A stretch of 20,958 nucleotides of DNA, from positions 1-20,958 of IMG/VR virus record IMGVR_UViG_3300005519_000020. One strand, written 5' to 3'. This DNA comes from a virus. Numbering within the stretch: the stretch's first letter is position 1; every line of letters begins with the position of its first letter. The position numbers and the translations under genes are program-made. The notes under the pieces were generated by a model. It did not search any database, had not been told where the DNA came from, and saw only the letters and a list, made by a program, of their open reading frames with translations. Of the stretch, positions 4,499 through 20,917 are shown one piece after another.

Positions 4499-5731
4499 TT
4501 ACTGAAGCGCCTCCATCACGACTTCGCACCAGACTTGCGCCTGGATAGCATTGATCGCGTTTCCGTAGGCGCGCAGGCGTCCCACTCGGGCGGGAGCCCC
4601 ATGAGCCAGCGGGAATGTGCCGGGTTCAACTGGCCGCCACTTTCCATCCCGGCAGAGGAGCCAATCAGCATCTCGCCAGAAGCCGTTAGTCGGGCCGGGC
4701 CGCGCCAGTTCGAGTCGATCACATCCTGCATCGACCATTCGCATAAGCTGACCGTCTTGCGGCTGCTGTCGTTGTTCCCCGCAGGGTTGTTCCCGTTCTG
4801 CGCCGGAGTGCCCGCCATGGGCGTCGGCCATCCAGCCAACGGAGCGCACCCCGGCAGCCGATCCGTCCCCTGCGCTGGGCCGCCGTTTGGGCCGTCCTGC
4901 TGACATGGCGTCGGCCATCCAGCCAACGGAGCGCACCCCGGCAGCCGATCCGTCCCCTGCGCTGGGCCGCCGTTTGGGCCGTCCTGCTGACATGGCGTCG
5001 GCCACTCCGCCAACTGAGTGAATACCTCCTCGCTCAAAGGCTTGCCCTTGACCATTCGAGCCCTCGACGCCAGGAATTCCGGCGACGCGCTCGCGCTCTT
5101 CCAATCCCGTGCGGCCGGCGTCGGCCACGCGGCAAGCATCGAGAAGTCGTTGAGATTCGATCCGTGGCGGCTCTCGCCCATCGCGCGTTTCGCTTGCCCC
5201 ACCCCGCTGGCGTCCATAGCCTGCGGTGTGGGCCACCCAGTAAAGGCGGTCGCGGATGTGCGGGGCACCGATGCTCGCAGACGGGAACGGGACAGCCCCG
5301 AATCCGTATTCCACGGCTTCCATGTCAGCTTGTACAAGGTCGATCCAAGGATCTGCGTCCTTGCTCGCAACTTGTTCTCCAAGAACGACTGGAGGCCGGC
5401 GCTGCTGGATAAGCCAGTGAAAGGCAGGCCAGAGATGCCGCTCGTCAGCAAACGCAAGTCCTTTGCCTGCCGCGCTGAAAGGTTGGCAAGGACAGGAACC
5501 GGTCCAAACAGGTCGATCGTCGGACCAGCCTGCGCGTCGGAGTGCCAGCGACCAGACGCCGATTCCGGCGAAGAAGTGGCACTGTGTGTAGCCTCGGAGG
5601 TCGTCAGGTCGAACATCCTGAATGTCTCTCTCGTCGACGTCGCCCGGAGCAATGTGGCCCGCCGCAATCAGATTGCGCAGCCACTGGGCGGCGTATGGGT
5701 CGATCTCGTTGTAATAGGCGGCGGCAGACAT
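4499..5731 (-). CDS. C5-cytosine-specific DNA methyltransferase
   Basis: 410 aa from the ATG at 5731 (TGATG overlap with the HTH gene). Motif [18 protein letters not shown] lies at 53-69 and motif [14 protein letters not shown] at 78-89 with catalytic Cys82. Motif VI reads EQV (119-121) where most family members have ENV. Motif VIII is IRDRLYWVA (159-167) and motif X is [11 protein letters not shown] (388-398). The target-recognition region (about 168-350) contains a perfect 29-residue tandem duplication. It probably methylates phage DNA against host restriction; its target sequence cannot be read. A second long ORF overlaps it out of frame. Confidence 0.88.
4516..5616 (-). CDS. Possible overprinted ORF inside the methyltransferase gene (WPTP-repeat protein)
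   Basis: A 366-aa ORF in another frame on the same strand as the methyltransferase, open from ATG 5616 ([11 protein letters not shown]; an in-frame start at 5667 exists). It contains [20 protein letters not shown], five W-P-T-P motifs ([52 protein letters not shown]) and a C-terminal [21 protein letters not shown] recognise this motif set from phage proteins listed as hypothetical or methyltransferase-related. It may be a real overlapping gene, or those entries may be alternative-frame translations of methyltransferases. Both frames look conserved, so it is listed with moderate confidence. Confidence 0.4.
4821..4994. repeat. Perfect 87-bp tandem duplication within the methyltransferase gene
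   Basis: Positions 4821-4907 and 4908-4994 are identical over 87 bases, and a third copy starts at 4995 for about ten bases. The unit is 29 codons, so the methyltransferase frame is kept ([15 protein letters not shown]... twice), as is the overlapping frame ([14 protein letters not shown]... twice). The lack of any mismatch implies a recent duplication or an assembly artefact. Confidence 0.93.
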
Positions 5732-7540: not shown

Positions 7541-7569
7541 ATTAAACACCACGTTTAATCAGAAGTCAA
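7541..7569 (-). promoter_or_regulatory. PR-like promoter of the leftward early operon
   Basis: On the minus strand, TTGACT (7569-7564), a 17-base spacer and TTTAAT (7546-7541) form a near-consensus sigma-70 promoter. The expected start, 7 bases past the -10 box, is at 7534, the A of the cro ATG. Operators centred at 7550 and 7574 overlap the -10 and -35 boxes, so repressor binding would occlude the polymerase. Confidence 0.85.
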
Positions 7570-7595
7570 ACGCCATGTTTATCAACAGGTTGTTT
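7544..7595. promoter_or_regulatory. OR operator cluster (three AAAC-N5-GTTT sites)
   Basis: Three imperfect palindromes share half-sites AAAC and GTTT five bases apart: 7544-7556 (within the 17-base palindrome TTAAACACCACGTTTAA at 7542-7558), 7568-7580, and a weaker one at 7583-7595 (CAAC in place of AAAC). The centres are 24 and 15 bases apart. They lie between the divergent cro and repressor genes and are matched by the cluster at 9041-9110. Confidence 0.85.
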
Positions 7596-7607
7596 ACGTG
7601 TGAGACC

Positions 7608-8414
7608 ATGCCGCGCATGCACGAAACCATGGTTCGCCTCTACGAGGCCGCACGCACACTCAAGGGATTGACGACCCAAGCGGACGTCGCCAGAGCCTTC
7701 AACTTCTCTCAGCAGAGGATCAAAAACTGGGAAGCCAGGGGCATGTCGAAGGGCGGCATGTTGAAGGCCCAAGAGGTTTTTGGTTGCAGCGCGACTTGGC
7801 TGGAGACCGGCAAGCCGCCGATGAACACTGTCAAGCAAAAATCTGATGCAGATCAGATTGAAATAAGACTTAACGAGCACTCAGAACCACCCTCTTACAA
7901 TCCTCAACAATCACCTACAAGAACGCTCACAGGCGTCGCGGTGCGCCCGATTGTTACTTATGAGACCCTGGACGAACTCCCTAAGGAGTCAACGGTTCTC
8001 ATCACGAGGATTGACGTGAAGCTGTCTGCGGGGAATGGGAGAGAGACTTGGCACATCGAGGAAAGGGAACCGCTGCCGTTCCAAGCCGATTACATACGGA
8101 GCCTCGATTCCAAACCGAAAAACTTAGTCGCCGCCAAGGTCAATGGCGACAGCATGGAGCCACGGCTATTCGACAAAGACACGGTGGTCGTCGACACGGC
8201 CGATACGCGGGTGCCAGCTAACGGCGGCGTGTTTGCCTTGGTGTATGCCGGCGAGCTGCTGGTCAAGCGCCTGTTCAGACTGCCTGATGGCGGACTGAAG
8301 GTGGTCAGCGACAACCATGTGCGCTACGAACCCGTCACAGTCGCGCCGGAGCATGTCGACAACGTGAGCATCATCGGCCGGGTCAAGTACCGGTCCGGCA
8401 TGGGCGATTTTTGA
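7608..8414 (+). CDS. S24/LexA-type CI-like prophage repressor
   Basis: 268 aa from ATG 7608. The in-frame ATG at 7575 would add 11 residues but lies inside an operator, so 7608 is preferred; the Shine-Dalgarno is weak for both. The N-terminal HTH is LTTQADVARAFNFSQQRIKNWEARG. The C-terminal S24 peptidase domain has Ala141-Gly142 in KLSAGNG as likely self-cleavage site, Ser182 in NGDSMEP and Lys220 in ELLVKRL as catalytic dyad. RecA-stimulated self-cleavage would make the prophage SOS-inducible. It should bind both operator clusters and keep the lysogenic state. Confidence 0.93.
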   Translation: MPRMHETMVRLYEAARTLKGLTTQADVARAFNFSQQRIKNWEARGMSKGGMLKAQEVFGCSATWLETGKPPMNTVKQKSDADQIEIRLNEHSEPPSYNPQQSPTRTLTGVAVRPIVTYETLDELPKESTVLITRIDVKLSAGNGRETWHIEEREPLPFQADYIRSLDSKPKNLVAAKVNGDSMEPRLFDKDTVVVDTADTRVPANGGVFALVYAGELLVKRLFRLPDGGLKVVSDNHVRYEPVTVAPEHVDNVSIIGRVKYRSGMGDF

Positions 8415-9040: not shown

Positions 9041-9110
9041 ACACACCGCGTTTGCACACCGCCAAAGAAAATTAAACGCGGTGTTTGACAACAAACTAAA
9101 CATGGTGTTT
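9041..9110. promoter_or_regulatory. OL operator cluster
   Basis: Two full sites, 9074-9086 and 9098-9110, have AAAC-N5-GTTT half-sites with centres 24 bases apart, the same spacing as the first two OR sites. A weaker site (ACAC-N5-GTTT) lies at 9041-9053. Shared half-sites at both ends of the repressor region argue that one repressor controls both early promoters. Confidence 0.82.
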
Positions 9111-11575: not shown

Positions 11576-12538
11576 ATGCTCCCAGCAAAACGCGAAGTAT
11601 CGGCTTTGCCGGCATTGCAGATGGATGAAGGCGAGCTGATGGCAGTCCTTCGCAATTCCCTCTATCCAGGTGCACGCGATGAGTCGATCAAGCTCGTGCT
11701 CGGCTACTGTCGCGCGGCAGCTCTGGATCCGATGCAAAAGCCGGTGCACATCGTGCCGATGTCGGTTTCCACCGGCCAGAAGGACAAGGACGGCTGGGAC
11801 ATCAAGGAAATGCGCGATGTCGTCATGCCAGGCATCGGCCTCTACCGCACGCAAGCAGCTCGCTCTGGCGAGTATGCAGGTGTCACTGAACCCGATTTCG
11901 GCGATGACGTCACCGAGAAGCTGGGCGACGCGACTGTTACGTACCCGAAGTGGTGCCGCGTCACGGTAAAGCGGCTGCTGAACGGCACCGTTGTGGAGTT
12001 CACTGCCAAAGAATATTGGCGCGAAAACTACGCGACGAAGAGCGCCCGCTCTGTCGAGCCCAACGCTATGTGGAAACGACGCCCCTATGGGCAACTCGCA
12101 AAGTGCGCAGAAGCGCAAGCGTTGCGCAAAGCCTTTCCCGAGTTTGGTGCCCAGCCGACTGCCGACGAAATGGAAGGTGCGATCGAGTTGGAGCAGTCCA
12201 ACGACGATCTTTCGCCTCCTACTGCCGGCGTGCCGATGCCGAAGTCACGCACCATAGCCCAGCAAGGCGGTGATGGCCAAGTCATCGACGTGCAGCCCAA
12301 GTCTGAAACGGACGCTGGCAGCGCCAAAAGCACCAGCACCGCCAAGAGGAAGGCCGACACGAGCGCCAATGACCTCGCATCCGAAGGCGAGCGCGCATGG
12401 ATCCGCCGCAAGTTGGAAGACCTGGGCGTTGAACTGCAAGCGGCCTGCGAGGAAGCCGGCATCAGCAACTTCGATGCGCTGACTTCTGACGGTTTCATTG
12501 CCCTGAAGGACCTCATCAATCGCTTGGAGCGCCAGTAA
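11576..12538 (+). CDS. bet: Bet/RecT-family single-strand annealing protein
   Basis: 320 aa. The annealase core is YCRAAALDPMQKPVHIVPM (44-62), VVMPGIGLYRTQAARSGEYAG (82-102), a KRLLNGTVVEFTAKEYW segment, and AMWKRRPYGQLAKCAEAQALRKAFPEF (164-190), the hallmark C-terminal motif of lambda Bet and RecT. These proteins anneal complementary single strands made by a 5'-3' exonuclease, here the adjacent gene. After about residue 215 follows a low-complexity Ser/Thr linker and a small helical tail. AGGAG lies 7 bases before the ATG. Confidence 0.92.
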   Translation: MLPAKREVSALPALQMDEGELMAVLRNSLYPGARDESIKLVLGYCRAAALDPMQKPVHIVPMSVSTGQKDKDGWDIKEMRDVVMPGIGLYRTQAARSGEYAGVTEPDFGDDVTEKLGDATVTYPKWCRVTVKRLLNGTVVEFTAKEYWRENYATKSARSVEPNAMWKRRPYGQLAKCAEAQALRKAFPEFGAQPTADEMEGAIELEQSNDDLSPPTAGVPMPKSRTIAQQGGDGQVIDVQPKSETDAGSAKSTSTAKRKADTSANDLASEGERAWIRRKLEDLGVELQAACEEAGISNFDALTSDGFIALKDLINRLERQ

Positions 12539-12540
12539 CC

Positions 12541-13119
12541 ATGCTGCTCTTCGAAGAGGCCACCCATACCTACCGTTTTGACGGCGCAGTCGTGCCTAGC
12601 GTGACGCAGATCCTGGCGCCGCTCAACGATCTGTCGTTCGTCGATCCGCAGGTGCTCGAGTACAAGCGCCAGCTCGGCACGGCCGTGCACAAGGCGACCG
12701 AGTTGTACGACCTGGGCGACCTCGACGAAGACAGCCTCGCACCAGTCATCAGGCCATACCTCGATGCTTGGATTCGCTTCCGGCGTGAGAAGCCGTTCGA
12801 GATCCTGGGCATGGAGCAGAAGGTCTACCACCCGCTCCATCGGTACGCCGGCACGTACGACCGAATGATCTCGATGGATGGTCGCCGCGGCCCCCTCGAC
12901 ATCAAGACCGGCGAGACGCTGCCGGGCTACGGCCCCCAGACCGCTGCATACAAAGCGGCATCCGAGGCCGAGACCGGTGAACGCCTGACCGGCCGCTGGA
13001 CGATTCAACTGCGCGATGACGGCACGTATCGCCTGCATACCAAGGCGGACGCAGACGACTGGCCCGTCTTCCTGAGCTGCCTGAACCTTTACCGCTTTCG
13101 CAACAAGCACGCCGCCTAA
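12541..13119 (+). CDS. PD-(D/E)XK exonuclease, partner of the annealase
   Basis: 192 aa. Motifs of the Cas4/RecB/YqaJ-like nuclease fold are in order: GTAVHKATELYD with His50, GMEQKVY with Glu92, GTYDRMI with Asp107, PLDIKTG with Asp120 and Lys122, and PQTAAYKAA with Gln133. Such enzymes resect double-strand ends to give the single strands on which Bet acts. The ATG is two bases after the Bet stop, so the two are made together. It is smaller than lambda Exo (226 aa) and closer to the Cas4-like branch. Confidence 0.88.
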   Translation: MLLFEEATHTYRFDGAVVPSVTQILAPLNDLSFVDPQVLEYKRQLGTAVHKATELYDLGDLDEDSLAPVIRPYLDAWIRFRREKPFEILGMEQKVYHPLHRYAGTYDRMISMDGRRGPLDIKTGETLPGYGPQTAAYKAASEAETGERLTGRWTIQLRDDGTYRLHTKADADDWPVFLSCLNLYRFRNKHAA

Positions 13120-13138
13120 CCGGCGGCTGGAGATCACG

Positions 13139-13957
13139 ATGAGCACTGCAACCCAAGGAACCATCGCATACGACGCCAGCGCCGCGCTGGTGCTGGTCAG
13201 CCAAGCCCAGAAGGCTCTCACGAATGCCGAAGCATACGTGATCGACAGCCCGGCCATGTACGAACTGGCCGCTGCCGACCTCCAGAGCGTGAAGGCGCTG
13301 CGCAAGCAGGTCGATGACAAGCGCACCGGCATCACGGGCCCACTCAATCAGGCATTGAAAGCCGTGAACGATCTGTTCCGGCCAGCCACGTCGTATCTCG
13401 ATGACGCCGAGGGAAAGCTCAAGGGTGCCCTGCTCGCGTACGACCAGGAGCAAGCCCGCAAGGCTGCGGAGGAACGCCGCCGGGCAGAAGAAGTCGCGCG
13501 ACTGGAGCGTGAACGCATCGAGCGCGAAGCGCGTGAAGCACAGGCGCGCGCCGAGGCCGAAGCCGAACGGATCCGCCAGGAAGCTGCAGCTGCTGCAGCG
13601 TCTGGCGACGAATCGAAGGCCAACGAACTGACGATGCAGGCCCAGCAGACCGCTGCCGCTGGTGCTGCCGAGGCCGAGCAGATCACCAGCACCGTCGATC
13701 TGATCACCGCCGCGCCGGTGCCCCTCGCATCGGCAGCGCCAAAGGTCAAAGGCCTGTCCACGCGCGAGAACTGGAAAGCGCAAGTCACCGACAAGATGAA
13801 GCTGCTGCAGCACATCGTCGCGCACCCCGAGTTCGAGAACCTGGTCGAGATCAATCAGAGCGCGCTCAACCAACTCGCCAAAGCGCAAAAGCAGGCGATG
13901 AAGCTCCCTGGCGTCGAGCCTTTCAACGACGCAATCCTGTCGGCCCGCGCCGCATAA
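13139..13957 (+). CDS. Coiled-coil phage protein of the recombination cluster
   Basis: 272 aa. An N-terminal helical domain is followed by a long charged coiled coil at about 95-150 (EQARKAAEERRRAEEVARLERERIEREAREAQ and onward), an alanine-rich stretch, and a compact C-terminal domain (LSTRENWKAQVTDKMKLLQHIVAHPEFENLVEINQSALNQLAKAQ). The coiled coil resembles TolA only through composition. Its place after Bet and the exonuclease suggests a Gam-like or DNA-end accessory role, unproven. GGAG lies 6 bases before the ATG. Confidence 0.75.
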   Translation: MSTATQGTIAYDASAALVLVSQAQKALTNAEAYVIDSPAMYELAAADLQSVKALRKQVDDKRTGITGPLNQALKAVNDLFRPATSYLDDAEGKLKGALLAYDQEQARKAAEERRRAEEVARLERERIEREAREAQARAEAEAERIRQEAAAAAASGDESKANELTMQAQQTAAAGAAEAEQITSTVDLITAAPVPLASAAPKVKGLSTRENWKAQVTDKMKLLQHIVAHPEFENLVEINQSALNQLAKAQKQAMKLPGVEPFNDAILSARAA

Positions 13958-14520: not shown

Positions 14521-14738
14521 GATCAGCGGGTGAAAGCAGATCCTGATCGACATCGATCGAGCGAAAAGCCCGTAGCCGGGAGATGCCGAGTCGATCGATA
14601 TGCGCGGTAGGCGGCGCAAGCAGCGGAGCGAGTAACCCACCCTTCAACGGGCGACTGCGGCGGGACATCGCCGAGTCCCAAAAAACACCGTGCGACGCCT
14701 CCTGGGTACCGGGCAGTCGCAGTTGCCCACCCATTTTT
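14521..14738 (+). ncRNA. Structured noncoding element upstream of the DGR (candidate sRNA or leader)
   Basis: The 262 bases between the preceding stop and the first DGR target hold no convincing gene but a series of inverted repeats. GATCAG (14521-14526) pairs with CTGATC (14543-14548). ATCGATCGA (14552-14560) pairs with TCGATCGAT (14591-14599) and encloses CCCG-TAGC-CGGG (14569-14580). GGG.GACT..GGCG pairs with CGCC.AGTCCC (14649-14679). A terminator hairpin follows. No sigma-70 promoter is evident, so it may be processed from the PL transcript. Class unknown; it matches no RNA family I know. Confidence 0.5.
14703..14738 (+). terminator. Intrinsic terminator before the DGR cassette
   Basis: TGGGT (14703-14707) and GGGCA (14711-14715) pair with TGCCC (14724-14728) and ACCCA (14729-14733), with a 3-base bulge and an 8-base loop, and five T residues follow (14734-14738). 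It would separate the PL recombination genes from the DGR unless read through by antitermination. Confidence 0.75.
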
Positions 14739-14781: not shown

Positions 14782-15138
14782 ATGCAAATCCAACTTCCCC
14801 CGCTCGCTGAAGGCGAAACCTATCTCTTCGGTCGCGTCGACAAGAACGGTGACATCGAACACACCGTGGTCATCGCTGTGAACAACAGCGCGCTGTCCCG
14901 CGAGAAGCAACGCGAGTGGGCTAAGAGCATTGGCGGCGTGCTGATGAACCGCATCGAAGCCATCGAGATCTACAACAGCCACCGCGACCTCGTTGAGCCC
15001 GATTGGTACTGGACTGACGAAGACGTCGAATGGGATACCGCTTACGCCTGGTACCAGAACTTCAGCTACGGCTACCAGCTCAGCGACCCCAAGTGCGCCG
15101 CGCTGCGCGCGGTCGCTGTCCGCAGATTCAAAAATTGA
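14782..15138 (+). CDS. DGR target protein 1, DUF1566/C-type-lectin-like variable protein
   Basis: 118 aa, no signal peptide. The N-terminal MQIQLPPLAEGETYLFGRVDKNGDIEHTVVI and WAKSIGGVLMNRIEAIEIYN lead into DWYWTDEDVEWDTAYAWYQNF and the C-terminal ALRAVAVRRF, the DUF1566-type C-type-lectin-like fold found in many DGR targets. Residues 87-116 are encoded by VR1. Variable residues relative to the template reading NFNNGNQNNNHKS are S, Y, Y, L, S, D, P and C (eight changes). Such domains present a ligand-binding face. The ligand is unknown. AGGA lies 8 bases before the ATG. Confidence 0.88.
   Translation: MQIQLPPLAEGETYLFGRVDKNGDIEHTVVIAVNNSALSREKQREWAKSIGGVLMNRIEAIEIYNSHRDLVEPDWYWTDEDVEWDTAYAWYQNFSYGYQLSDPKCAALRAVAVRRFKN
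15038..15128 (+). repeat. Variable repeat VR1
   Basis: 91 bases aligned without gaps to TR 16201-16291. The first 20 bases and the last 43 or so are identical; 9 substitutions lie in between, and every one is at a template A (three to G, four to T and two to C, counted codon by codon). It lies at the 3' end of target gene 1 and is followed by CA where TR has GG. Confidence 0.97.
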
Positions 15139-15198
15139 CCCATCTCCTCATTCACTGAGCTGAACAACCCATCCCGTCCAACTCTGCAGGAGCACAGC

Positions 15199-15666
15199 AT
15201 GACCGCAGTCACCCTGGAGCACATCGAAGCGGAGCACGTGCGCATCGGCGAACTTATCAAGCGATTCAAGGAACAGCCGCGCGCCACGGAATACCGTGTC
15301 GATGCAGTCACGATCCCACTCGCGCCCGGCGAACGCCTCGCCGGTCCGATCTACGCCGAAGACGGCACGCTGGATTACTACCTGATCAAGCTGCCCGGCG
15401 ATGGTGGCGACCTCAGCCACTCCGATGCCATCGCGTATGCGGCCGGCCGTGGCGGCAAGGTTCCCAATCGCCGCGAAGGGCGCCTTCTGATGGCGAATCT
15501 AGGCGAGGAGTTCGACAAGGTCGCCTACTGGTTGGAAGACGACTACGAGCCGAACTCCGCTTACGCCTGGTACCAGTACTTCGACGGCGGCTACCAGATC
15601 ACCAACCACGAGAGCGCCGCGCTGCGCGCGGTCGCTGTCCGCAGATTCACCCCTTCCGTAATTTGA
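15199..15666 (+). CDS. DGR target protein 2, DUF1566/C-type-lectin-like variable protein
   Basis: 155 aa. A helical N-terminus (MTAVTLEHIEAEHVRIGELIKRFKEQ) not shared with target 1 precedes a DUF1566-like domain: GRGGKVPNRREGRLLMANL, AYWLEDDYEPNSAYAWYQYF and ALRAVAVRRF. VR2 covers residues 120-149. Seven residues differ from the template reading (Y, D, G, Y, I, T, E). The two targets share little outside the VR-coded end and the surrounding fold, so they are diverged paralogues or separate acquisitions fed by one TR. GGAG precedes the ATG by 6 bases. Confidence 0.9.
   Translation: MTAVTLEHIEAEHVRIGELIKRFKEQPRATEYRVDAVTIPLAPGERLAGPIYAEDGTLDYYLIKLPGDGGDLSHSDAIAYAAGRGGKVPNRREGRLLMANLGEEFDKVAYWLEDDYEPNSAYAWYQYFDGGYQITNHESAALRAVAVRRFTPSVI
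15557..15647 (+). repeat. Variable repeat VR2
   Basis: 91 bases aligned without gaps to TR 16201-16291, with 8 substitutions, all at template A. The same reading phase is used as in VR1. Its 3' flank CA equals that of VR1 and differs from TR (GG), consistent with the VR-side form of the homing-initiation region. Confidence 0.97.
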
Positions 15667-15680
15667 TCATTTGACACGCC

Positions 15681-16058
15681 ATGGCTCTGCACACTGAGCT
15701 CGACGTCTACAAGACCGGCTACGACCTGTTCGGCAAGGTGACCATGATCGTCGCGAACATGGAACGCACTTTCAAGCGCCTGATCGGCGAGGAGATCGTC
15801 CGCGAATCCTCGAAGCTTCTGATCTTGGTCTATCGCGCGAATGTCGCTGAAGACAAGGTGCCGCACCTCGCCAACTTGGTCGAGCGAGTAAAGCTCGTCG
15901 AGCTGTTGATCCGCCTCTCATTCGACATGAAGAAGGTCTCGCCTAAGCAGTACTGGGCGGTCACGAAGTTGACGGAGAGCATCAGCAAACAGGCCACGGC
16001 GTGGAAGAAGTACGCAGCCAAGCGCCCGTTTCATGGAGGTCAAGGCCACCATGACTGA
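15681..16058 (+). CDS. avd: Avd-like accessory variability determinant
   Basis: 125 aa, the normal size for Avd. It is all-helical and basic: LDVYKTGYDLFGKVTMIVANM, then FKRLIGEEIVRESSKLLILVYRAN, LANLVERVKLVELLIRLSFDM and YWAVTKLTESISKQATAWKKYAA, the four helices of the bundle fold. Avd forms a pentamer that binds the reverse transcriptase and the template RNA and is essential for mutagenic cDNA synthesis in the Bordetella phage system. It begins 14 bases after target 2 with little Shine-Dalgarno. Its end overlaps the reverse transcriptase start. Confidence 0.9.
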   Translation: MALHTELDVYKTGYDLFGKVTMIVANMERTFKRLIGEEIVRESSKLLILVYRANVAEDKVPHLANLVERVKLVELLIRLSFDMKKVSPKQYWAVTKLTESISKQATAWKKYAAKRPFHGGQGHHD

Positions 16059-17421
16059 GCGCCTTTTCAATCTGGTCGTGCCGCTGGCTCACAAGGCCAC
16101 CGCCATGCGCGTCACGGATACCGCCGGTTTCGACCGGGAAGCGTCCCGCGCAGTTTCCCATCTGAGCGATCGGACGGGCGACGTAGATAGCACGATTGGT
16201 CCGCTTACGCCTGGTACCAGAACTTCAACAACGGCAACCAGAACAACAACCACAAGAGCGCCGCGCTGCGCGCGGTCGCTGTCCGCAGATTGGAACGAAA
16301 CGGAAGGCTTCACGGGCGCCGAGTTGGTCAGAGCATACCGAGACTGCCGGCGCACGAAACGCAATACAGCAAGCGCGCTCGCCTTCGAAGCCAACCTCGA
16401 GCGCAACCTCTTCAAATTGCACGGCGAACTGGCCAGCGGCTGCTATGTGCCGGGCCCATCGAAGTGCTTTGTCATCGACCGGCCCAAGCATCGCGAAGTC
16501 TGGGCGGCCGCCTTCCGCGATCGAATCGTGCACCACTTGTTGTACAACCGCATTGGTCCGCGCTTCGAACGCACATTCATCGCCGATTCCTGCGCATGCA
16601 TCAAAGGGCGCGGCACGCTATACGCCGCCCAGCGCCTGGAATCGAAAGTGCGCTCGATTACCCAGAACTGGGCACGGCCAGCGCACTACCTGAAGTGCGA
16701 TCTGGCCAACTTCTTCGTCAGCATCGACAAGCGCGTACTCCTCGATCTACTGCTCGCGAAGATCTCCGAGCCATTCTGGCGCGCATTGACCGAGCTCGTG
16801 CTGATGCACGATCCACGGGAAAACTTCGTCTACCTTGGCGACCCTAGGATGATGGACCGCGTGCCGCCGCACAAGCGCTTGATGCAACAGCCGGCGCACC
16901 TCGGGCTGCCTATCGGCAACCTGTCGTCGCAGTTCTTCGCCAACGTCTACCTCAACGAGCTGGACCAGTTCGTGAAGCACGAACTGCGCTGCCGGCATTA
17001 CATCCGCTACGTCGACGACTTCGTGCTTATGCACGAGTCGCCTCAGTGGCTCAACGAGGCGCACGCTGCCGTCGCGGCATTCCTGCCGGCCCGGCTTGGT
17101 GCGCGCCTCAACCCAACGAAGACCATCCTGCAGCCGGTCGCACGCGGCATCGACTTCGTCGGCCAGGTGGTTCGCCCATGGGTGCGGCACACCCGCAAGC
17201 GGACGCTGAATAGCAGCATTCAGCGCGTTCGCGAAATGCCGGCACAGGACATCTATCAAGCCGCCAACAGCTACTTCGGCCTGCTGCGCCAAGCCACTGG
17301 CAGCCACACCGAGCGCGCCAAGCTCGCGAATGCCGCGCGCAAGCGTGGGCATGCCGTCAATCGACAACTCACGAAGGCCTACCGCGCCGCCCTCGATAAG
17401 CAGAAGGAGAAGCAACAATGA
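16051..17421 (+). CDS. DGR reverse transcriptase
   Basis: 456 aa from ATG 16051, which has GGAGGT 10 bases upstream; ATG 16033 is an alternative. The polymerase core includes YLKCDLANFFVSID with Asp217, GLPIGNLSSQFFANVYLNELD (285-305; the SQ in motif 4 is typical of DGR enzymes, where group II introns have QG), and RYVDDFVLM with Asp322-Asp323. The thumb is basic. There is no maturase or endonuclease domain. The first 80 or so residues, including a Thr/Arg-rich stretch translated from TR, precede the conserved core and are not typical. No in-frame ATG or GTG was found between TR and the core; TTG 16324 is the only candidate. Confidence 0.95.
   Translation: MTERLFNLVVPLAHKATAMRVTDTAGFDREASRAVSHLSDRTGDVDSTIGPLTPGTRTSTTATRTTTTRAPRCARSLSADWNETEGFTGAELVRAYRDCRRTKRNTASALAFEANLERNLFKLHGELASGCYVPGPSKCFVIDRPKHREVWAAAFRDRIVHHLLYNRIGPRFERTFIADSCACIKGRGTLYAAQRLESKVRSITQNWARPAHYLKCDLANFFVSIDKRVLLDLLLAKISEPFWRALTELVLMHDPRENFVYLGDPRMMDRVPPHKRLMQQPAHLGLPIGNLSSQFFANVYLNELDQFVKHELRCRHYIRYVDDFVLMHESPQWLNEAHAAVAAFLPARLGARLNPTKTILQPVARGIDFVGQVVRPWVRHTRKRTLNSSIQRVREMPAQDIYQAANSYFGLLRQATGSHTERAKLANAARKRGHAVNRQLTKAYRAALDKQKEKQQ
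16201..16291 (+). repeat. Template repeat TR
   Basis: 91 bases with AAC codons in the frame of the targets (reading NFNNGNQNNNHKS), the design that gives maximum diversity when A is randomised. It is identical to both variable repeats at every non-A position. It contains the GC-rich palindrome CCGCGC-TGC-GCGCGG at 16261-16275, present in both VRs too. It is flanked by GG at its 3' side. It lies inside the reverse transcriptase ORF. Confidence 0.97.
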
Positions 17422-19479: not shown

Positions 19480-19689
19480 ATGCCGATACTGACGAATGAA
19501 GACTTGAAAGCCCTCACTGGCGGCCTTGTACAAGGGGCGGCCCAGTGTCGGTGGATCACCCGCGAGCTAGGCTTCAAGCCGCCCATGAAGATCGACGGCC
19601 ACCCGTCTATCACTTGGGAGCAGGTGAATCGCGGTCGCACATCTGGCGAGAAGCCGCGCACCGAGCCCCGGTGGAGTGTCGCAGCGTGA
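19480..19689 (+). CDS. DUF4224-like protein, excisionase position
   Basis: 69 aa. ILTNEDLKALTGGLVQGAAQCRWITRELGFKPPMKIDGHPSITWEQV fits the DUF4224 pattern (LT..EL..LTG......Q...L...G......DG.P...). The family is typically encoded directly before tyrosine integrases and is suspected to act as a recombination directionality factor. GGGAG lies 6 bases before ATG 19480. Its stop overlaps the integrase GTG. Confidence 0.78.
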   Translation: MPILTNEDLKALTGGLVQGAAQCRWITRELGFKPPMKIDGHPSITWEQVNRGRTSGEKPRTEPRWSVAA

Positions 19690-20732
19690 ACCGGCCACGT
19701 ACCGTCAAGCAGGCAAAAGGCCTGCTGGATCGCATGGAAGCGCGCCCGCGAAAAGACGGGCTCGTGACATATCGCTACCGGCCCGTCAATGGCAAGCCGA
19801 TCAACCTGGGAACTGACCGCCTGAAAGCAATTCAGCAGGTACTGGATATGCTTGGCCACGGCGACAACATCGGCACCATTGAGCGCTTGTGGGAGCAGTA
19901 CCAAGAGACGCCTGAGTGGAAGGCGCTCGCCAAAGGCACGCGCGACGACTACACGACATGCAGCAAGCCTTTGCTGGCAACGTTCGGGGAAGTCCGGGCC
20001 AGCGACATCAAGGCGCCCCACATTGCGCGATACCTGCGTGTGGAGCGAAAGAATGCCCCCATCCGGGCCAACCGGGAGGCCGCCCTACTCTCGAACCTCA
20101 TCAATCTGGCGATCGAGCGCGGGGAGGCAGAGGTCAACCCATGCCGCCAAGTACGACGCAATCCTGAGCAGCCCCGTACGCATGCCGTCGCTACGGAGAC
20201 GATAGCGGCGTTCGTTGGCTGGCTGATGGGGCAGACACCACAGCGCAAGATCATCGCGCTGGCGGCGGAATACGCTGCACTGGCGGGCAGCCGGAAGGCC
20301 GAGTTCTTGGACATCGTGCGCCCGCAGGTCGATACCACTGCCGGCGTCATTCGAACGAAACGCGCCAAGCAGCGCGGTGGCAAGCGCGACCAGGTCATCG
20401 AGGAAGTTGCTATCACCCCTCGCTTGGCCGATCTGTTGGCTCGCATTGATGCCGTGCACAAAGAGCAGGAGCGGGATTGCTTGTACCTGTTCCCGAACCG
20501 GCACGGCAACCACTACACCGCATCTGGCTTCAAAGCGATGTGGGGCAAACTGATGAATAAGGCGCTGGAGGGAAAGGTGATCGCCGAACGGTTCACCTTC
20601 CACGATCTGCGTGCCTACTACGCGACAACGCACAAGGCGGAGCGAGGAAACCTGCCAGACCTGCACGCCAATCCGGCCATCACGGCGCGTGTCTACGACC
20701 GCAGCAAGGTGGTCAAGCGCAAGGCGCTCTGA
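19686..20732 (+). CDS. int: Tyrosine-family phage integrase
   Basis: 348 aa from GTG 19686 (GTGA overlap with the DUF4224 stop); longer frames run into the preceding gene. The N-terminal arm-binding strand set is DGLVTYRYRPVNGKPINLG, the core-binding helices include TRDDYTTCSKPLLATFGEVRASDIKAPHIARYL, and the catalytic residues are Arg203 (AGSRKAEF), Lys225 (RTKRAK), His306 and Arg309 (FHDLRA), His327 and Tyr337 (VYDRS). It catalyses integration and excision, here at the adjacent tRNA-His. The Cterminal KVVKRKAL ends soon after the tyrosine, normal for the group. Confidence 0.95.
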   Translation: MNRPRTVKQAKGLLDRMEARPRKDGLVTYRYRPVNGKPINLGTDRLKAIQQVLDMLGHGDNIGTIERLWEQYQETPEWKALAKGTRDDYTTCSKPLLATFGEVRASDIKAPHIARYLRVERKNAPIRANREAALLSNLINLAIERGEAEVNPCRQVRRNPEQPRTHAVATETIAAFVGWLMGQTPQRKIIALAAEYAALAGSRKAEFLDIVRPQVDTTAGVIRTKRAKQRGGKRDQVIEEVAITPRLADLLARIDAVHKEQERDCLYLFPNRHGNHYTASGFKAMWGKLMNKALEGKVIAERFTFHDLRAYYATTHKAERGNLPDLHANPAITARVYDRSKVVKRKAL

Positions 20733-20840: not shown

Positions 20841-20917
20841 TGGGGTGACCGATGGGATTCGAACCCACGACAACCAGAATCACAATCTGGGACTCTACCA
20901 ACTGAGCTACGGCCACC
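20841..20917 (-). tRNA. tRNA-His (anticodon GTG), prophage integration site
   Basis: On the minus strand the sequence begins GGTGGCC, has TAGCTCAGTTGGTAGAG for the D arm, CCAGA-TTGTGAT-TCTGG for the anticodon arm with anticodon GTG, GTGGGTTCGAACCCCAT for the T arm, and ends GGTCACCCCA. The extra 5' G opposite C73 and the encoded CCA are typical of tRNA-His. All stems pair. Its 3' end faces the integrase gene, the usual arrangement when a phage uses the 3' end of a tRNA as attB and restores it on integration. Confidence 0.96.

Follow-up and report, generated by a model that had tools for sequence, protein, structure and literature searches.

Two small variable DGR target proteins encoded away from the tail genes in a clade of temperate phages

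Results

The virus record IMGVR_UViG_3300005519_000020, analysed over its whole 20,958 bases and referred to here as the window, is a fragment in which structural genes are absent. It carries a diversity-generating retroelement (DGR) whose two target genes lie directly upstream of the accessory gene Avd, the template repeat and the gene for the reverse transcriptase (RT), all on the + strand (Table 1). The original prediction had placed two variable open reading frames at this locus, and both are present: the C-terminus of each contains a copy of the template repeat, and all of the differences from the template fall at template adenines. The adenine-specific differences, the DGR-type RT and the Avd together confirm the two reading frames as DGR targets. 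The surroundings are also as first described, with Bet/RecT and exonuclease genes upstream and an integrase downstream. Elsewhere in the window, on the minus strand, a DNA-methylase-like gene contains a perfect, in-frame tandem duplication of 87 bases (4820-4993).

Table 1. Positions of the features discussed, numbered from the first base of the window
Feature	Position	Strand	Basis or remark
Two operator palindromes, between cro-like gene and repressor	7544..7580		AAAC-N5-GTTT
S24-type repressor-like gene	7575..8414	+	Sub-threshold S24/LexA-type matches; position between operators
Two operator palindromes, head of + strand operon	9074..9110		AAAC-N5-GTTT
Recombination genes (Bet/RecT, exonuclease, exonuclease-associated)	11576..13957	+	Upstream of targets
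Hairpin followed by T-run, possible attenuator	14711..14728	+	Upstream of protein 1
Target protein 1, 118 aa, single predicted C-type-lectin-fold domain	14782..15138	+	ORF; AlphaFold2 pLDDT 95.9; fold match
Variable region 1	15038..15128	+	9/9 differences from template at template adenines
Target protein 2, 155 aa, predicted coiled-coil neck and C-type-lectin-fold head	15199..15666	+	ORF; AlphaFold2 pLDDT 90.4
Coiled-coil neck, protein 2 residues 6-25	15214..15273	+	AlphaFold2 helix 6-25; a/d pattern in relatives
Variable region 2	15556..15647	+	8/8 differences from template at template adenines
Avd accessory protein	15681..16058	+	phrog_3206 9.4e-21; bAvd 2.8e-8, slightly below Pfam cut-off
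RT-15 structured RNA	16020..16202	+	RF03018, 168.6 bits vs Rfam threshold 82
Template repeat	16201..16291	+	GC-rich 3' part 16260-16286 identical in both targets
DGR reverse transcriptase	16324..17421	+	phrog_1423 1.4e-113; RVT_1; start codon uncertain, frame open from 16033
Tyrosine integrase	19545..20732	+	Phage_integrase 5.9e-9; start codon uncertain

The RT-15 RNA runs up to the 5' end of the template, and it is found at the same place in 5 relatives. Given this contact, the transcript that carries the DGR template probably includes RT-15, an orphan RNA family. Among relatives, 182 template/target pairs were compared: differences affect 2220 of the 4946 adenines in the templates (45%) against 0.3-0.8% of C, G and T positions, a bias that is therefore not due to chance. 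Up to about 9e12 variants are possible for each target of the window.

In phage pairs whose RTs and templates are the same or nearly so, differences within the variable regions fall almost exclusively on template adenines: 10/10 in protein 2 of L039/L040, 14/14 in L054/L055, 13/13 and 12/12 in LPPA56/L103 and 17/17 and 14/15 in L092/L099. Judging from these near-identical relatives, and not from the window phage itself, the DGR of this clade is active. For the most part the target bodies evolve under purifying selection, with dN/dS of 0.03-0.32 where it could be computed, and replacements are in excess in the variable regions in the same analysis. Two of the relatives carry further rearrangements. 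In L040 (8486-8848) the middle segment of protein 1 matches exactly the third target that this phage family carries further upstream, which suggests gene conversion between targets, and in L068 the spacing between the variable region of protein 1 and the template is 4 bases off that of the near-identical L070, leaving protein 1 out of frame, which suggests a homing event with an indel.

The heads of both proteins are predicted to adopt C-type-lectin folds, and protein 1 is modelled as such a head without a neck. The nearest solved folds among the matches listed are those of the Legionella Lcl and Bdellovibrio Bd2740 C-terminal domains, which belong to cellular proteins with 9-20% sequence identity to the targets; the model of protein 1 matches 8oks with Z 13.5 and 8q4e with Z 13.2, and the predicted model of protein 2 matches 8q4e with E 5.5e-4 and TM 0.57/0.67. 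Nothing is concluded from the fact that known DGR variable proteins such as Mtd, TvpA and the Thermus protein are not among the matches listed. The earlier description of the proteins as DUF1566-like is thus borne out by the predicted folds, which match the Lcl C-terminal domain, and falls short at the level of sequence, where Lcl_C / DUF1566 (PF07603) scores 17.2 and 15.0 bits, below the Pfam gathering cut-off of 34.9.

The neck of protein 2 has hydrophobic residues at a/d positions 6, 9, 16, 20 and 23 in 37 of 37 relatives of its type, and longer versions of the neck are longer by exactly 7 residues. The hydrophobic a/d positions and the seven-residue steps in length therefore identify it as a coiled coil, and the claim that neither protein has a trimerisation stalk is wrong for protein 2, which would oligomerise through this neck. 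Position 13 is His or Gln in 35 of the 37 relatives.

Neither target of the window has a visible signal peptide, lipobox or membrane segment, which is in keeping with the first reading of the sequence and extends it. Among 171 relatives a lipobox occurs in none, and a signal peptide or membrane anchor is likewise missing save for two borderline hydrophobic N-termini. It could be proposed that the targets are exported and alter the surface of the host cell, since the closest solved folds among the matches listed come from surface or secreted adhesins; with nearly all of the relatives devoid of any export or anchoring signal, this is very improbable. The targets gave no match to a defence system.

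All assignable genes downstream of the palindromes at the operon head, the recombination genes and the integrase included, are on the + strand. The palindrome AAAC-N5-GTTT occurs 4 times in the window against an expectation of 0.11, and the four copies flank the repressor region. The layout is that of a lambda pL operon, and repressor control of the operon is therefore well supported from the window itself. The DGR block lies within this pL-like operon, from which the targets would be produced early. A tRNA-His gene (20841-20916) follows the integrase and, by analogy with BPP-1, may be the attachment site.

The hairpin and T-run upstream of protein 1 have counterparts in relatives: 20 of 44 upstream regions contain such a signal, compared with 41 of 440 random windows, and the window's own copy falls outside the stricter rule of the script used for the relatives. 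The p-value of this enrichment (9e-9) is optimistic because many of the loci are close relatives. The signal lies mostly at about -48 to -16, its sequences differing, and terminator-like sites over the whole window are not above chance. This arrangement suggests an attenuation of transcripts that enter the block, which would then need antitermination. A second explanation for the targets arises here, namely lysogenic conversion, in which proteins made by the prophage act, for example, in the cytosol to exclude other phages that infect the lysogen. The block has a 262-base leader with its own hairpin and adjoins the integrase, where accessory genes are common. Nevertheless, it lies in a repressor-controlled operon with the hairpin between any upstream promoter and protein 1, and lysogenic conversion is accordingly held to be improbable.

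At least 80 loci in IMG/VR carry this RT clade, most with two targets directly upstream of Avd, and about 23 of the loci listed have additional targets at a distance of 2-10 kb upstream. Among 40 phage records of complete size, target-like proteins are confined to the DGR block and the stretch upstream of it on the same strand, and none lies near the tail genes, so that the stand-alone position noted for the window, away from structural genes, is a rule that the whole clade follows. Magia and QDWS, both isolated phages, have the full arrangement according to their own annotation. Baseplate_J is on the strand opposite to the DGR in 25 of the 25 records that have it, as are the terminase in 11 of 12 and Phage-tail_3 in 7 of 8, and the integrase is on the DGR strand in 32 of 36. 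One record, L078 (G024), is the sole one with both the terminase and Phage-tail_3 on the DGR strand. Baseplate_J and Phage-tail_3 are mutually exclusive in these records and the target pair is found with both; the pair therefore goes along with the early module, irrespective of tail type. The podovirus marker PF12236 gave no match anywhere, controls included. A fibre with the same attachment domain, named in the original prediction as the observation that would speak against it, was sought in 24 related genomes, the window having no structural genes, and none was found: in each of the 24 the neck is present a single time, in protein 2, even at E 1, and in no fibre. Attachment to a virion could nevertheless take place with no domain shared. 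In 20 host genomes, target homologues were found only at the known loci and at a second locus in two of the genomes.

Some relatives have lost the RT. The Pseudomonas phages Medea1 and Aurca01 carry a similar pair of targets in the cI-to-int operon with an HNH-type gene and a C-terminal scrap of the RT where the RT would be, another HNH-type gene has taken that position in the Paraburkholderia loci L108 and L115, and the RT is also lost from L118. Avd, template and RT have thus been replaced by at least two kinds of HNH-type endonuclease gene (L108:10366-11057, L115:10466-11055, L158:7593-8237), in each case with both targets intact beside the RT scrap, and the HNH-type gene seems to be a mobile gene that preys on this DGR. 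Between Medea1 and Aurca01 (L158:6268-7576, L159:6271-7579) the HNH genes are identical and the flanks near-identical, with the variable regions heavily different, which could reflect either diversification in trans or a recent arrival of the HNH gene in both phages. The RT-less relatives were considered as proof that the targets are needed without the DGR. This argument loses force, since selection still seems to act on the RT remnants and Medea1 and Aurca01 share identical HNH genes, which makes the loss recent or mobile; the loss therefore supports the operon slot and not a long-term need for frozen targets. Pseudomonas phage D3, which has no RT, carries orf68 (L157:6956-7516) as its first gene after cI; orf68 is related to the longer targets, diverges at its C-terminal end and may be what is left of a third target.

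Discussion

The arrangement of the window resembles that of the BPP-1 DGR (mtd-avd-TR-brt) in the order target, avd, template and RT, in adenine-directed variation, in a lectin-fold target and in residing in a temperate phage, whose attachment site is also a His-tRNA gene. The two differ in placement and in target: the BPP-1 cassette is on the late strand beside the tail genes and its target is a tail protein of 381 aa, whereas the window has its cassette in the early operon on the integrase strand, with two small targets. The 'VR2' of BPP-1, in the early gene bbp36, was rejected as a precedent, being a tandem-repeat region unrelated to the template.

DGRs, lectin-fold targets and one phage of this kind are already known. 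The DGR of Burkholderia phage Magia (NC_070954) belongs to the same clade and has the same arrangement, with two adjacent targets and one more near the repressor; the paper describing it noted the short reading frames 47 and 57 with a guess at host range, left the adjacent second target gp46 as hypothetical and did not discuss the early placement (PMC7883833). Two DGR targets each, some of unclear function, have been reported in the Faecalibacterium phages Lelie and CP11 and the Roseburia phage Shimadzu, which differ in that their targets are DUF6273 or tail-like (PMC11792537), and in a global survey the viral DGR targets of several clades were mostly tail proteins (PMC8144416). No paper on early-operon DGR targets as a class was found in a literature that excluded preprints and most subscription journals, and within that scope a clade-wide rule of early-operon placement seems not to have been described before. 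To our knowledge, all functionally characterised phage DGR targets are receptor-binding proteins.

The main rival to a role inside the cell is one in the virion, in which the proteins, made early, are assembled on the tail or capsid, with the lectin fold or the neck making the contacts, as decoration or receptor-binding tips, and diversification, as in BPP-1, alters host range or adhesion. The known phage DGR targets provide a precedent, and a neck with a lectin head resembles a small trimeric binder. However, the genes lie in an early operon on the strand opposite to the tail genes, and the same proteins accompany different types of tail with no attachment domain in common, so that a virion role is considered unlikely, at perhaps one chance in a handful or slightly better. 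Of the functions first proposed, decoration proteins made late fit poorly with an early operon headed by operators, and intracellular hypervariable binders would fit better.

Given the placement of the genes, the lack of export signals, the lack of a shared attachment domain and the independence of tail type, action inside the infected cell is favoured. In this reading the RT and Avd make a cDNA of the template repeat, misreading adenines as they do so, and this cDNA replaces the 3' ends of the two small genes just upstream. Both proteins would be made early after infection or induction and would stay in the cytosol, where their variable faces may bind proteins of the infected cell, most likely components of host defence or proteins of rival phages, and phages with a well-fitting variant would replicate better. 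Against this reading count the receptor-binding role of the characterised phage DGR targets, the fact that the tip of a fibre could equally well have a lectin fold and a short neck, and the ability of proteins made early to persist until assembly. Taken as a whole, an early-operon DGR that makes early, cytosolic, hypervariable intracellular binders is put at roughly equal odds of being right or wrong, with counter-defence or interference with rival phages as the presumed function. That a clade of temperate phages evolves cytosolic, antibody-like DGR binders against host defences or rival phages, and not receptor-binding fibres, is proposed more tentatively, as a possibility that somewhat fewer than half of the odds would favour.

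Were the targets to act within the cell, phages would possess intracellular binders whose repertoire keeps evolving, and the role of phage DGR targets that are not fibres would become testable in the isolated phages Magia, QDWS and LPPA56. A phage may thus diversify the tools that it uses inside its host, and not only the fibres with which it grabs it.
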